From Prevotellaceae bacterium (GTDB lineage Bacteria > Bacteroidota > Bacteroidia > Bacteroidales > Paludibacteraceae), in the NCBI GenBank assembly GCA_031270065.1, contig JAISYF010000005.1, forward strand, positions 1-39,825: DNA of 39,825 nucleotides. The letters are read 5' to 3'. This document shows, one piece after another, positions 5,017 to 25,775 of this stretch. Within the stretch, counting starts at the first letter, position 1, and each line of letters starts with the position of its first letter. Under the pieces are notes generated by a model that worked only from the letters and a program-made list of their open reading frames with translations, searched no databases and was not told the DNA's origin. Both the position numbers and the translations under genes were made by a program.

Positions 5017-5192
5017 GGGAGTTCTAAAATTCAATTTGAAAATTTGAAAATTTGAAAATGCAAAAATACAATTTGAGGATTTGAGGATTTGAAAATTCAA
5101 TTTTAAAAAAATTATTAATTATTAATTATATTTCGTATTTTGCATTTTGTATTTTGCATTTTCAAATTTTCAAATTGAATTTTAGAACTCCC
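5017..5192. repeat. Hairpin-forming inverted repeat built from AT-rich octamers
   Basis: The ends are reverse complements over 35 consecutive bases, starting GGGAGTTCTAAAATTC and running into AATTTGAAAA units. One arm then has one extra unit. The interior holds more AATTTGAGG/AATTTGAAAA units and an AT-rich centre. It fills most of the 326-base gap between lpxD and the TPR gene, both on the minus strand. The rest of the gap (4874-5016) shows nothing recognisable. Confidence 0.8.
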
Positions 5193-19942: not shown

Positions 19943-22900
19943 CTACCAATTTTCGTCAAAGTACTCATTATCAATACTTTCCAAGTTTTCAAGTTTTTTA
20001 TAATTTTTATTGTCAGACATTAAATCATTGTTGAAAGTTTGAAAAAATACTTCCAAGTCCTCCGTTCTGCCCAAGTCCATTTTTTTGCGCATACGGTATC
20101 TCATCATCTCTACACCGCGAATCGAAAGGTTCATCAAAGGCGCAATTTCCTTAGTAAGCAGACCCATTTTGATATAGATGCACAGTTTGCGTTCATTCTT
20201 GTTAAGCCACGAAAACTGCTCTGCAAGCCGTTTGATAAAATCATCATTTACAATGTCGAAATTCTCTTCAAAACGATTCCAATCTATATCCTGTTCTATA
20301 TTTCGAGAAATTTTTCCTTGCAAAACAACAATTTTCCGCACTCCCTGCTCAATGTTTTTTTTCTGCAAATCACTCTGAATATTCTTTAAATCAACTTTTA
20401 ATTCCTGCAAAAGTTCTTTTTTATTTATATGATTTAGCAAAATATTCGCCAATTCCTGACTTTTATTTTTGAGTTTGAACCTGATATTTTCGGCTTTAAG
20501 TTCGAGCATTTCTTTCTCTTTTTCATGTTTTTCGAGTAAAAATTGTTGCTCCTGCTCTTTTATTGCAACCTCTTTTTTGCGTTCTTCGCGGACTTTATTT
20601 CTGTGAATTTTTATTTTTATATAACGCAAAATCCAATAAATAAGCGCGTAAATCAGCAACGCATATATTATATACGCCCACCAAGCACGGTAAAACGGCG
20701 GTTGAATTTCAAAGACAAGTTCGGTGCGCTGCACTACGTCAGAGTTGTTGCTGCGCATTTCTACAACGAACCTGTATTTTTGCTCCCTTAATGACGTATA
20801 TTCTTTTGAGTTTGACGCACCCCAACTTCCGAAGTCGTCATCAACAGGCGAGAGATAATAACGGTACTCTTGATAACCGTTTTCGCTTATTGCTCCGCCA
20901 AAGATAATGCGCAAAGAATTATGCTTATGGGGGATTTTGATTTTCTGCGGAATTTTTGGAAAATTTTCGCCATAAATCACTGAATCTCTGACGTTTGTGG
21001 TATAAAGAGCGCGAATAAAAAGTTCGCGGTTTTCGGGCGCACTGCGTACATTATTCAAATTTCCGAGCGAAAAACCCGATACGCAACCCGCAATCGCGCA
21101 GTTGTTGCCGATTGGAGTAAGCGAAGCAAACCCGCCGATAAAATAACCTCTAATATTCCAAATGGTAACAGGTTTTGACGTATAAGATTTTTTCATTTTG
21201 TCCCACGCAAGCACTTTCAGTCTGCTATTTGAAATATACCACACATTATTATCTATATCTTTTTTAATAATTGAGTATTGCCTTACGCCATCAAGTGAAT
21301 TGAAAAATGCAGTATCTTCTACAAATTCTTCGCTTTCATTTGATTTCAAACAAATGTGTTGATTGCTTACAATCAATGAGTTATCTATTTTATTCAGGCT
21401 AAAATAGTCGTTTGAGTTGTGCGCATGACAAATAATTTCTGACGTAGTGTTTTCGAGGTTTTTGTCGAATGTCAATCGCTCTACTCCTTTGCTCGAAAGT
21501 ATTACGACACGATTTTTTCTGTCAATTTCAAAAATACGTGCAGCATCTTTGTAAGTTTGTATTCTGTGTTTGACTATCCAATTTTTGCCCTGTTTTTCCA
21601 TCAGATACAATCCTGTGTATGCGCCTGCAACGGCAAAATTTTTGTTTTTCATTTCGCGTACCTGCCAAAAACCGTCTTCCTCCGAAATTGGTTCTAATCT
21701 GTCGCCTACTACGGCAAAAAGTCCGCGGTTGTGGCTGCAAATCAGTGTGTTGCCCAATGTATCAATGTTCCAAACCTGCCCTTGCGAACCGCTTATGAGA
21801 GTTGCCGTTGTGCGCCTTTCGCTGCTCTGCATCAAGTACGATGTGTAGAAAAGTCCCTGATTGGTAGCCATATATAGCCGACTGTCGTAAATCAACGAGC
21901 AGTAGCCGGATCCGCAGGAATTGAGTTTGCCGTAGAGTTCCATTATCGGCGATTCGGTTACAACATAGTCAATTCCATTGTCGAGACCGAGCCAAAGATT
22001 GTTGCAGTCGTCAAAGCAGAGAGAGAGGATTGTGTTGTTTTGCAAGCCGTTTTCGGTGTTGGTGTAAGTACATTTGCGCGTCTTTATATCAATGATTATC
22101 AAGCCATTAAGCACTGTGCCAACCGCGATAGAGTTTTTTGAAACCGCCAAAGAATAAAGTTGGTTTGTGCATATAAAATTGTCGCCCTCTGTTGTGAAAG
22201 GCGTGATTTTATCTCCGTCAAAAATATACAATCCATTGCGTTCTGTGCCGATTAAAATATTATGTTCACCAAATTGCGCAATTTGCTTAATTTCTTTGCT
22301 ATTGAGAACGTCAGAATTTTTGAGTGCGTTCAGGTGCGAGCCTGCCAATAAATAGATGCCGTCTGAGGCTGCGACGTAAATTCCTCCGCGAATTTTTGCT
22401 GAAGTGATAATTTTTGACTTCGATTTTATAACCGCAATTTCGCCGTCTGAGGTAAATTTGAAAAGGAAGTAGTTTGTTTGGAAATACAAGTCGTTGTCGA
22501 GGCTGTGAATATTCCACACTTCGCCGAAATTATTTTTGTACTCCTCAGGCAGTTTTGTCGAAAGCGGAGAGTAGGTCAGGCTGCCGAGCGCGTTGCTTTT
22601 AAATTGCCCAAATTCATTTGACCCGCCAACGTAGATTGTGCCGTCTGAACCGATTTCCACACTGCGCAGAACGGTCGAGTTCCAAATTCCGTAGTGCCGC
22701 CACATATTGCCGTCAAATTCGAGCAAGCCGTAGTTGTTTGCAGTATAAATCCAGCCGCGTTGCGATTGCCTTACCGCCCAATTCTGCGTACCGGCGTTGT
22801 AGGTCTCCCAACTATAATTCGACACAGGCAGTTGCCAAGACGCTTGCACTGAATACACATTAATTATTAATGCAAGTAAAATAAAATTTAATTTTTTCAT
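19943..22900 (-). CDS. Membrane-spanning one-component regulator: beta-propeller, Y_Y_Y domain, LuxR-type HTH
   Basis: A 985-residue sensor-regulator. The N-terminal signal (about 1-20) is followed by a periplasmic two-component-regulator-type beta-propeller (repeats such as SLAVSKNSIAVGTVLNGLII and ILSLCFDDCNNLWLGLDNGI) and a Y_Y_Y-like domain near residues 650-730. One membrane segment (about 735-762, AWWAYIIYALLIYALIYW) leads to a charged coiled coil (770-850) and a C-terminal LuxR/GerE-type HTH (about 890-945; LNKNERKLCIYIKMGLLTKE, then LSIRGVEMMRYRMRKKM). The histidine kinase and receiver domains of hybrid two-component systems are absent. It probably senses a glucan breakdown product and acts on the susC promoter 171 bases downstream. 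Ligand and target are inferred from position. Confidence 0.85.
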   Translation of the reverse strand: MKKLNFILLALIINVYSVQASWQLPVSNYSWETYNAGTQNWAVRQSQRGWIYTANNYGLLEFDGNMWRHYGIWNSTVLRSVEIGSDGTIYVGGSNEFGQFKSNALGSLTYSPLSTKLPEEYKNNFGEVWNIHSLDNDLYFQTNYFLFKFTSDGEIAVIKSKSKIITSAKIRGGIYVAASDGIYLLAGSHLNALKNSDVLNSKEIKQIAQFGEHNILIGTERNGLYIFDGDKITPFTTEGDNFICTNQLYSLAVSKNSIAVGTVLNGLIIIDIKTRKCTYTNTENGLQNNTILSLCFDDCNNLWLGLDNGIDYVVTESPIMELYGKLNSCGSGYCSLIYDSRLYMATNQGLFYTSYLMQSSERRTTATLISGSQGQVWNIDTLGNTLICSHNRGLFAVVGDRLEPISEEDGFWQVREMKNKNFAVAGAYTGLYLMEKQGKNWIVKHRIQTYKDAARIFEIDRKNRVVILSSKGVERLTFDKNLENTTSEIICHAHNSNDYFSLNKIDNSLIVSNQHICLKSNESEEFVEDTAFFNSLDGVRQYSIIKKDIDNNVWYISNSRLKVLAWDKMKKSYTSKPVTIWNIRGYFIGGFASLTPIGNNCAIAGCVSGFSLGNLNNVRSAPENRELFIRALYTTNVRDSVIYGENFPKIPQKIKIPHKHNSLRIIFGGAISENGYQEYRYYLSPVDDDFGSWGASNSKEYTSLREQKYRFVVEMRSNNSDVVQRTELVFEIQPPFYRAWWAYIIYALLIYALIYWILRYIKIKIHRNKVREERKKEVAIKEQEQQFLLEKHEKEKEMLELKAENIRFKLKNKSQELANILLNHINKKELLQELKVDLKNIQSDLQKKNIEQGVRKIVVLQGKISRNIEQDIDWNRFEENFDIVNDDFIKRLAEQFSWLNKNERKLCIYIKMGLLTKEIAPLMNLSIRGVEMMRYRMRKKMDLGRTEDLEVFFQTFNNDLMSDNKNYKKLENLESIDNEYFDENW

Positions 22901-22930: not shown

Positions 22931-22938
22931 TACTTTTG
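22931..22938 (+). promoter_or_regulatory. -7 box of the sRNA candidate
   Basis: TACTTTTG fits TAnnTTTG and would place the start near 22944-22946, exactly where the first paired segment of the RNA begins. The -33 position is only a T-run, so the match is partial. Confidence 0.55.
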
Positions 22939-22943
22939 CAACA

Positions 22944-23092
22944 TCTCACGCAAAATATAAATATGCAAAACAGAGTGGTGCTACACTCCAAAGGCTTTTT
23001 GCCTTCGGCTTGGTGTAGCACCACCTTAATCATTTGCCAATGCGTGAGAAACTTGGCAAATGAAGTTGAGGGTTTTTTATTTCCCTCTTTTT
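22944..23092 (+). ncRNA. Candidate small RNA with a pseudoknot and its own terminator
   Basis: Four pairings can be read directly. Stem 1 is a perfect 12-bp pair, 22975-22986 with 23013-23024, topped by AAGGC-TTTTT-GCCTT. Stem 2 is a perfect 10-bp pair, CATTTGCCAA (23031-23040) with TTGGCAAATG (23053-23062). The 12-base loop of stem 2 contains TGCGTGAGA (23041-23049), which pairs over 9 bases with TCTCACGCA at the 5' end (22944-22952), making a pseudoknot. A terminator follows (GAGGG/CCCTC, then TTTTT). With the -7 box in front this is a complete RNA gene of about 149 bases. It is divergent from the glucan regulator. A 62-codon reading frame across it has no protein-like character. It might be a divergent 6S RNA or a known Bacteroidales RNA family; I cannot tell. 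Confidence 0.75.
23068..23092 (+). terminator. Intrinsic terminator of the sRNA candidate
   Basis: GAGGG (23068-23072) pairs with CCCTC (23083-23087) and is followed by TTTTT. Confidence 0.7.
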
Positions 23093-23578: not shown

Positions 23579-23668
23579 TTTTCAAATTATCAAATCATTC
23601 AAATTATCAAATTTTCAAATCATTCAAATCATCAAATCATCAAATCATCAAATCATCAAATCATCAAA
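23579..23668. repeat. 8-bp tandem array in the hutU leader
   Basis: Five exact tandem CAAATCAT units (23625-23664) preceded by degenerate CAAATTAT, CAAATCATT and CAAATTTT units. The array ends about 10 bases before the chosen hutU start codon and is open in the same frame, which explains an apparent 43-codon N-terminal extension. It belongs to the same octamer family as the intergenic arrays. Confidence 0.8.
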
Positions 23669-23678
23669 CTCCAAAACC

Positions 23679-25775
23679 ATGACAGACTTTCAAAAATCTA
23701 TTACCGAAGGCATACCCGATATTTTGCCTCAAAAACAACAATATGAGTCGAATATCGACCACGCGCCAAAAAGCAAAGATATTCTTACAAAAAAAGAGGA
23801 AAAAATGCTTGCGGTAAAAAACGCTTTGCGCTATTTTCCAAAGAAATTTCACGAGGAACTTGCGGCGGAATTTCTTAACGAATTGCAAACTTACGGCAAA
23901 ATTTATATGTATCGCCTGCGCCCAAATTACGAAATAAAAGCGCGCCATATTGACGAATACCCTGCAAAAAGTCGGCAGGCGGCGGCAATAATGCTGATGA
24001 TTAACAATAATCTTGATTACGCTGTGGCGCAGCACCCGCACGAATTGATTGTGTATGGCGGCAACGGCGCGGCGTTTCAGAATTGGGCGCAATATCGGCT
24101 CACAATGCAATATTTGTCGAAAATGACTGATAATCAAACTCTTGTGCTGTATTCGGGACACCCGCTCGGCTTATTCCCCTCGCACCCTGATGCGCCGAGA
24201 TTGGTTATTACCAACGGAATGGTTATTCCAAACTACTCTAAACCAGACGATTTGACAAAATTCAACGCGCTCGGCGTGTCGCAATACGGACAAATGACGG
24301 CGGGTTCATTTATGTATATCGGACCGCAAGGCATAGTTCACGGAACGACAATAACGATAATGAACGCAGTGCGTTTGCTGGACTCGCGGCGCAAAAACAA
24401 TGTGGCTTCGACTACGCTCAGCCACCGCGAGTTGAACAATGTAGCACAGTCGATGAGCGAAGCCGAAGCGACACACCCTGAAAATCGCAGAAAATTGTTC
24501 ATTACCGCAGGTCTTGGCGGAATGTCGGGCGCACAGCCAAAAGCCGCAAATATTGTGGGCGTAGTTAGCATTACGGCGGAAATCAACGAAAAAGCAGCGT
24601 ACAAACGCCACAAGCAAGGTTGGGTTGATGAGGTGATTGACGATGCCGAAACCGCCGTCAATACCGCACTCGAATGGCAGCAAAAGAATGTTCCGCACTC
24701 AATTGCGTATCTCGGAAATGTGGTTGATTTATGGGAATTTCTGGCGGAAAAAAATATAAAAGTCGATTTGGGCAGCGACCAAACTTCGCTGCACAATGCT
24801 TGGGCAGGCGGCTACTACCCTGTCGATTTTTCGTATGAAGAATCTAAGAAAATGATGGCGGAAAATCCCGAAGAATTTAAAGAGAAAGTTAAAAAATCGT
24901 TGTGCCGTCAAGTTGCTGCAATAAACAAATTAGCCGAAAATGGAATGTATTTTTTTGATTACGGAAATGCGTTTTTGTTGAAAAGCGGCGAGGCGGGGGC
25001 AGATGTAATGTTGAAAAGTGCAGATAATTCTCAATACCGCTACCGCTCTTATGTGCAGGACATTATGGGACCTCTCTTTTTCGATTACGGCTTTGGACCG
25101 TTCCGTTGGGTTTGCACTTCGGGCGATGAAAATGACTTGGCAATGACAGACAAAATTGCTTCGGAAGTTTTAGAAGAAATTATTAAAACCGCTCCTAACG
25201 AAATTATTAATCAAATAAAAGATAATATTCTTTGGATTAAAGAGGCGAAGGAAAACCGCCTTGTTGTCGGCTCGCAGGCGCGGATTTTGTATGCCGACAG
25301 CGAAGGCAGAATGAAAATTGCGCAGGCGTTCAACAAAGCCATTGCAGAGGGTAAAATTTCCGCGCCGATTGTACTCGGTCGCGACCACCACGATGTTTCA
25401 GGCACCGACAGTCCCCATCGCGAGACCTCGAATATCAACGATGGTTCCTCTTTCACTGCCGATATGGCGGTGCAAAATGTTATCGGCGACAGTTTCAGAG
25501 GAGCAACGTGGGTGTCGCTGCACAATGGCGGTGGCGTTGGTTGGGGAGAGTCCATAAACGGCGGTTTCGGGCTTGTGATAGACGGCTCGCAAGACGCAGA
25601 ACGGCGGCTCAAAAATATGCTTTTGTTTGATGTAAATAACGGTATCGCGCGGCGCAGTTGGGCGCGAAATTCAGGCGCAATGTTCGCTATTCAACGCGAA
25701 ATGAGCAGAACGCCAGAGTTGCAGGTAACAATGCCGAATATGGTGGAGGAAAATATTTTAGAACGGTTATTCTAA
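23679..25775 (+). CDS. hutU: Urocanate hydratase
   Basis: The second step of histidine degradation: urocanate plus water to 4-imidazolone-5-propionate, in the cytoplasm, using NAD+ as electrophile. The chosen ATG (MTDFQKSITEGIPDILPQKQ) gives 698 residues, the long form found in Bacteroidota and animals rather than the roughly 550-residue proteobacterial form; the 43 codons upstream are repeat DNA. Family motifs include LVLYSGHPLGLFPSHPDAPR, ITAGLGGMSGAQPKAA, the NAD+-binding region LGSDQTSLHNAWAGGYYP, and FDYGFGPFRWVCTSGDENDL. No hutH, hutI or ftcD is within the window, so the pathway genes are split. Confidence 0.95.
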   Translation: MTDFQKSITEGIPDILPQKQQYESNIDHAPKSKDILTKKEEKMLAVKNALRYFPKKFHEELAAEFLNELQTYGKIYMYRLRPNYEIKARHIDEYPAKSRQAAAIMLMINNNLDYAVAQHPHELIVYGGNGAAFQNWAQYRLTMQYLSKMTDNQTLVLYSGHPLGLFPSHPDAPRLVITNGMVIPNYSKPDDLTKFNALGVSQYGQMTAGSFMYIGPQGIVHGTTITIMNAVRLLDSRRKNNVASTTLSHRELNNVAQSMSEAEATHPENRRKLFITAGLGGMSGAQPKAANIVGVVSITAEINEKAAYKRHKQGWVDEVIDDAETAVNTALEWQQKNVPHSIAYLGNVVDLWEFLAEKNIKVDLGSDQTSLHNAWAGGYYPVDFSYEESKKMMAENPEEFKEKVKKSLCRQVAAINKLAENGMYFFDYGNAFLLKSGEAGADVMLKSADNSQYRYRSYVQDIMGPLFFDYGFGPFRWVCTSGDENDLAMTDKIASEVLEEIIKTAPNEIINQIKDNILWIKEAKENRLVVGSQARILYADSEGRMKIAQAFNKAIAEGKISAPIVLGRDHHDVSGTDSPHRETSNINDGSSFTADMAVQNVIGDSFRGATWVSLHNGGGVGWGESINGGFGLVIDGSQDAERRLKNMLLFDVNNGIARRSWARNSGAMFAIQREMSRTPELQVTMPNMVEENILERLF

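Follow-up and report, generated by a model that had tools for sequence, protein, structure and literature searches.

A predicted double-pseudoknot RNA of Mu-like phages and its probable capture by a Prevotellaceae chromosome

The RNA gene between a regulator and hutU

What lies in the DNA between a large regulator gene and the urocanate hydratase gene (hutU) of a Prevotellaceae bacterium, and how did it come to be there? In the window (the whole stretch of 39,825 nucleotides that was analysed), the complete signals of an RNA gene were found on the plus strand at 22931-23092: a promoter, two hairpins, a pairing between the 5' end and a hairpin loop, and a terminator. The divergent neighbour is a 985-aa regulator (19943..22900, minus strand) whose C-terminus weakly matches a LuxR/GerE HTH. 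It starts about 38-40 nt from the RNA and adjoins a SusC-like gene. The downstream neighbour is hutU (23679..25775, plus strand), and both genes lie outside the RNA. A first-pass annotation had placed here a small RNA gene with a promoter, pairings of 12, 10 and 9 bp and a terminator hairpin, and direct reading found each of these elements in place.

The -7 promoter box TACTTTTG (22931..22938) is of the Bacteroidetes type TAnnTTTG, and from its position the transcript is predicted to start at about 22940-22944. The 5' end of the transcript, TCTCACGCA (22944..22952), is the 5' strand of helix P1 (by direct reading and covariation) and forms nine perfect base pairs with TGCGTGAGA (23041..23049), which lies inside the loop of hairpin H2. 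Hairpin H1 consists of GTGGTGCTACAC (22975..22986) and GTGTAGCACCAC (23013..23024), paired over 12 bp and recognised both by direct reading and by covariation. H2 was read directly as CATTTGCCAA (23031..23040) paired over 10 bp with TTGGCAAATG (23053..23062), both arms being seen in the comparison of homologues as well. Covariation added two further elements, a helix P3 between GCCTTCGGCTT in the apical part of H1 (23001..23011) and AAGTTGAGGGT immediately 5' of a U-tract (23063..23073), and a small apical hairpin in which AAGGC (22991..22995) is the alternative partner of 23001-23005. The first U-tract, TTTTTT (23073..23078), is the probable 3' end of the transcript. A terminator-like hairpin (23068..23092), with GAGGG at 23068-23072 and CCCTC at 23083-23087 followed by T5, overlaps P3.

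The helices of the window copy thus measure 9 (P1), 12 (H1), 10-11 (H2) and 11 bp (P3), and the folding energy of the single strand is -57.5 kcal/mol vs -31.9 +/- 3.6 kcal/mol for dinucleotide shuffles, i.e. it is 7 sd more stable. Every helix, the promoter and the terminator are intact, so that the window copy shows all features of the family described below (P1, H1, H2, P3, a TAnnTTTG promoter and a U-tract after P3), and it scores 117.8 bits with the first covariance model (R1) and 100.8 bits with the second (R2).

The DNA just upstream of hutU (23582-23668) consists of about 10 copies of the short tandem repeat TCAAATCA; a listed ORF with a TTG start reads through these repeats, and the likely start of hutU is the ATG at 23679. 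Similar repeats of the type AATTTGAA occur in the window at 5033, 10811, 30955 and 31354.

The window gave no match in Rfam 15 at the gathering threshold, and a permissive search of the RNA region returned matches at chance level only (E 0.05-9); the weak ones (SQ2397, SNORA68 and others) were discarded as chance, being far below gathering scores. Eight homologous loci likewise gave no Rfam match at E<=0.5. The RNA therefore does not belong to a known Rfam family. The phage records of Peternella_1 and hankyphage p00, which carry homologues, leave the RNA without annotation, and the family is not described in the open-access papers that were searched, though others could exist. As far as these tools show, the RNA family and its fold are new, the broad kind 'phage sRNA' being known.

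Homologues, covariation and fold

A DNA search of 60 relatives revealed two copies in one genome of the same family, 76% and 84% identical to the window RNA over part of its length; each adjoins a phage-type DNA methyltransferase, and one also adjoins a tape-measure gene. From there the search led through a viral contig to Winogradskyella phage Peternella_1 and, via pattern scans, to many IMG/VR contigs and genomes. The first DNA pattern scans of contigs returned mostly chance matches in unrelated bacteria, which were weeded out by checking whether the H1 complement was present. BLASTN with the window RNA as query found no match among 50,697 phage records, Peternella_1 being reached only through a relative (L003), and two later BLASTN queries gave no matches. 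Forty-three homologues were collected for alignment, and many more were found by covariance model, the E-values of which are rough. With R1, copies turned up in 8 of the 300 family genomes and in 1 of 395 genomes of the phylum, namely the genome of the window itself; R2, built on 44 sequences, gave 16 positive genomes among 393 at the level of the order and 4 among 395 at that of the class. Several genomes possess two copies, the window genome a single one. Such a sporadic distribution, together with the double copies, points to a mobile element and not to a housekeeping gene.

The alignment of 44 sequences was made with MAFFT from sequence alone, and the structure tested was read from this alignment and its members; within it, the four-helix structure pairs 92.7% of cells, and 26 of the 35 pairs show double changes, so that homologues with compensating changes, by which the first-pass annotation had proposed to judge the RNA, do exist. 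The covariation score was 0.433 vs 0.186 in shuffles, none of 500 shuffles reaching the observed value, and a control with partners slid by 1-3 columns lowered pairing to 37-49%. H1 is paired in 98.4% of cells with double changes at 10 of 14 pairs, and the arms of H2 vary in sequence among homologues while their complementarity is kept.

P1, which the first-pass annotation had thought hard to explain by chance, changed on both sides at all nine column pairs; 83% of cells are paired vs 25-54% when slid, in a region where several alignment columns (of P1 as well as H2) are imperfectly aligned. It is represented by 35 distinct helices with a mean of 8.3 contiguous Watson-Crick pairs vs 5.4 after strands had been exchanged among the sequences, e.g. 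TCTCACGCA/TGCGTGAGA in the window, TTTCGCAGGCA/TGCCTGCGAAA in L004, CTACCACA/TGTGGTAG in L013, CTCCTAC/GTAGGAG in L192 and GCAAACGTAC/GTACGTTTGC in L181. Compensatory change at every column pair, with no shuffle reaching the score, shows that P1 is not due to chance. Since the H2 loop usually holds little besides the P1 strand, P1 can be seen as a helix of the loop (kissing) type. The 5' end had also been read as closing a long outer stem, which would give the RNA two forms. This 'outer stem' and the P1 pseudoknot use the same two strands, and an alternation between them is possible; however, the surrounding hairpin is preserved in almost all homologues, which favours the form with the 5' end docked in the loop.

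The pairings first proposed did not include a fourth long helix, the second pseudoknot P3, in which the 3' half of the H1 apex (23001-23011) pairs with the stretch before the U-tract (23063-23073). P3 is paired in 97.2% of cells, 5 of 9 pairs show double changes, and the base pair at alignment columns 86-152 occurs in six combinations. With P3, the alignment predicts a compact RNA that contains two pseudoknots and has both of its ends paired. The apical hairpin 22991-22995/23001-23005 (89% paired, double changes at 4 of 4 pairs) competes with P3 for part of one strand, and because both covary, they should be alternative or sequential states. That the fold is kept through an almost complete turnover of sequence signals a strong structural function.

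The wobble pairs of P3 (93 G-U vs 1 A-C cells) identify the plus strand as the functional one. They bear on the reading that the other strand, or the DNA itself, acts, e.g. as a bidirectional terminator or a leader of the late operon, the plus-strand promoter being incidental. This would suit the antisense location of the element, which in almost all phages is the end of the tail operon, yet the 93 G-U cells would be 93 mismatches on the minus strand, and the promoter is conserved: in all 42 homologues whose upstream sequence is long enough, TAnnTTTG, with one TG variant, precedes P1 by a few nucleotides. This count is somewhat biased by the start-locating pattern, which favours the box, but the bias does not touch the constant spacing between box and P1. 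We regard action of the other strand or of the DNA as very improbable, and the minus-strand reading was rejected on the G-U/A-C count. No -33 element was clearly evident. A U-rich tract comes after P3 in almost all homologues, and the CCCTC (CCCC) arm of the terminator is missing or weak in several of them, so that the 3' end of the family may more generally consist of P3 and the U-tract. The predicted length of the RNA is about 120-145 nt. The promoter and terminator signals and the strand bias support a discrete sRNA gene, as the first-pass annotation had proposed, with transcription and termination predicted from these signals.

Phage setting and origin of the window copy

Nearly all relatives reside within Mu-like transposable phages, among them Winogradskyella phage Peternella_1 and Bacteroides hankyphage p00. 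Peternella_1 has transposase genes of the MuA/MuB type, a Mu-type gpG and a methyltransferase as its last gene, and its Mu-like structural or transposase proteins find matches near many other copies. In the phages, the RNA is oriented antisense and has the final gene of the tail operon on one side and, usually, a DNA-modification gene on the other; the stop codon of the tail gene is usually at +126 to +180 from the RNA promoter, and the divergent gene on the other strand usually starts about 10-70 nt from it. Most phage copies immediately precede the modification gene, at the phage's right end; the window copy, which has no phage neighbour, does not. Of 36 divergent neighbours, 24 match the D12 N6-adenine methyltransferase in Pfam, and the others include a GNAT+ABC fusion, a thymidylate-synthase-like protein and a holin. 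A Mor-like gene (hankyphage), small HTH-like proteins and tail genes also occur as neighbours.

Several of these neighbours deserve mention in their own right. A protein with matches to ABC-ATPase and GNAT domains takes the methyltransferase slot at L175:7963-9111(-), L179:1-689(-), L197:9761-10900(+) and L212:1-1133(-), and is perhaps a Mom-like DNA-modification enzyme. In L181 and L200 the divergent neighbour is a small related protein (about 100 aa), starting 23-41 nt from the RNA promoter, which looks like an HTH of the DnaA C-terminal type. A phage holin adjoins the RNA at L205:2682-3170(-). In a Winogradskyella genome, a thymidylate-synthase-like gene (L062:4732-5394(+)) lies between the RNA and the methyltransferase, a gene pair as in hankyphage that perhaps serves thymidine hypermodification.

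Hankyphage p00 is a transposable Bacteroides phage with a methyltransferase at its right end, and directional RNA-seq of its lysogen in B. thetaiotaomicron jmh43 has been published (PMC12135933). Its homologue of the RNA, without annotation in the record, is at BK010646 complement(40550..40688), corresponding to L273:2551-2689 on the minus strand (R2, a rough E of 1.3e-5). Its primary sequence differs, and all four helices are present, including a P1 of up to 14 bp, an H1 of 15 bp and P3 as GCCCCCGGTC/GGCCGGGGGC followed by T6. It is situated between an ORF on the side of the DGR and a Mor-like gene (named so in the related phage BX-TP2), and downstream of it are this gene, thymidylate synthase and the N6 methyltransferase. 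The DGR template-repeat RNA is a non-coding RNA of the same phage as well, but it lies 2 kb away (BK010646 38419-38534) and is not related to the homologue.

The window copy is not borne by a prophage, its neighbours being the regulator and hutU, and phage proteins tested against the window gave no match except one 29-aa chance match over the RNA itself. In a genome of the same genus (G001), an orthologous regulator (71% identical) adjoins an intergenic region without the RNA, where a covariance-model search was negative; further out, the intergenic DNA is recognisably the same as in the window. On the simplest reading, the lineage of the window probably gained the RNA without the phage; loss of the RNA in G001 is possible, and so is a former prophage around the window copy that has since been deleted. 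The window copy would thus probably be an intact phage-derived RNA captured by the host chromosome. Elsewhere in the window genome (G000), weak matches to a Mu-like transposase (G000:C152:20379-20642) and a D12 methyltransferase (G000:C104:43-732) were observed, possibly remains of a Mu-like prophage.

These results bear on the suggestions that the host uses the RNA for housekeeping or as a kind of 6S RNA, or that it regulates the polysaccharide genes nearby. Its position about 40 nt from a regulator that adjoins a SusC-like gene, which was the sole basis for the link to polysaccharide use, and the long closed hairpin would be in line with them. The RNA resembles 6S RNA in size (about 130-150 nt), mostly double-stranded form and possession of its own promoter. 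But no 6S match was obtained even at E<=10, nor any other relevant one in Rfam, and a 6S RNA would be expected to form a long duplex with a central bubble and to be kept as one copy across the clade. Instead, the RNA has two pseudoknots, is phage-borne and sporadic, and is absent beside the orthologous regulator of the sister species. We consider a host RNA of any of these kinds hardly credible.

Function and comparison with known systems

We are reasonably confident of the identity and anatomy of the RNA as a new family of Mu-like phages, taken together with its reading as an autonomous RNA and with no specific target assigned. As to the mode of action, we rank first, tentatively and at somewhat less than even chances, a stable, autonomously expressed RNA that would act in trans, most likely as a scaffold or decoy that binds protein. 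The reasons are that base pairing involves almost the whole RNA, that the structure withstands changes in sequence, that the phage has no long stretch complementary to the RNA outside the RNA's own locus, and that the window copy has persisted with no phage genes beside it. A resident prophage would make the RNA as part of its DNA-modification/anti-restriction region; the 5' end docks into the H2 loop (P1) and the apical region of H1 onto the 3' end before the U-tract (P3), and the paired ends would confer stability. The apical strand can pair either locally or with the 3' end, probably resulting in two-step folding or two-state switching. The window copy, probably acquired without the phage, has kept its promoter and all helices, which suggests that it can act without phage neighbours. 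The RNA has no match of at least 12 nt to the rest of the Peternella genome, which speaks against a simple antisense target in the phage and was also the ground for rejecting an antisense RNA of the immunity type, as in phage P4.

A cis regulator in the slot of Mu's com, ranked second for the striking constancy of the arrangement and for the DNA-modification genes nearby, is a less probable, though still appreciable, alternative. The RNA or its transcription would control the divergent gene, usually a DNA-modification gene, by antisense pairing with the leader of the late mRNA or by transcriptional interference, and the window copy would have been recruited for control of the regulator gene at 19943-22900. 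The conserved distances to the tail gene end and the divergent start speak for it, as do the unrelated types of the modification genes and the same geometry in the window copy (regulator start 38 nt away). In the Haemophilus Mu-like phage SuMu, furthermore, the translational regulator com occupies the matching slot and is followed by a D12 methyltransferase. However, antisense action leaves the conserved pseudoknots and the G-U pairs of the RNA strand unexplained, and the Mor-like, holin, small HTH-like and tail neighbours indicate that there is no single cis target. The com-mom region at the right end of Mu itself shares the order of tail genes, small regulator and DNA-modification gene in the same genome slot, but the slot is filled here by a structured RNA on the opposite strand and not by a small protein, with control of the neighbouring gene being putative.

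Among other phage RNAs, the pRNA of phi29 and further structural RNAs are short and highly structured, with loop pairings and sequence drift under a conserved fold. The new RNA shares these properties with the pRNA, but it adjoins DNA-modification and not packaging genes, and no relation was found through Rfam. The Mu-gpT-DE motif is an RNA element of Mu-like phages located downstream of the head gene gpT; it is likewise a structured RNA candidate of such phages, but differs in that position, and the new RNA gave no Rfam match.

The trans-acting reading remains the one we prefer. A bolder proposal, that Mu-like phages of Bacteroidetes, including hankyphage, replaced protein control of the com type with a double-pseudoknot RNA switching between two folds, and that at least one bacterium captured this RNA beside a chromosomal regulator, seems to us rather unlikely in its entirety. 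The RNA constitutes a new family without an Rfam entry, in phages of a main gut and marine phylum. Hankyphage, widespread in the gut, offers in B. thetaiotaomicron a cultured and genetically tractable system, and because the RNA lies next to DNA-modification genes of the phages, a role in anti-restriction, or in its timing, can be tested directly.
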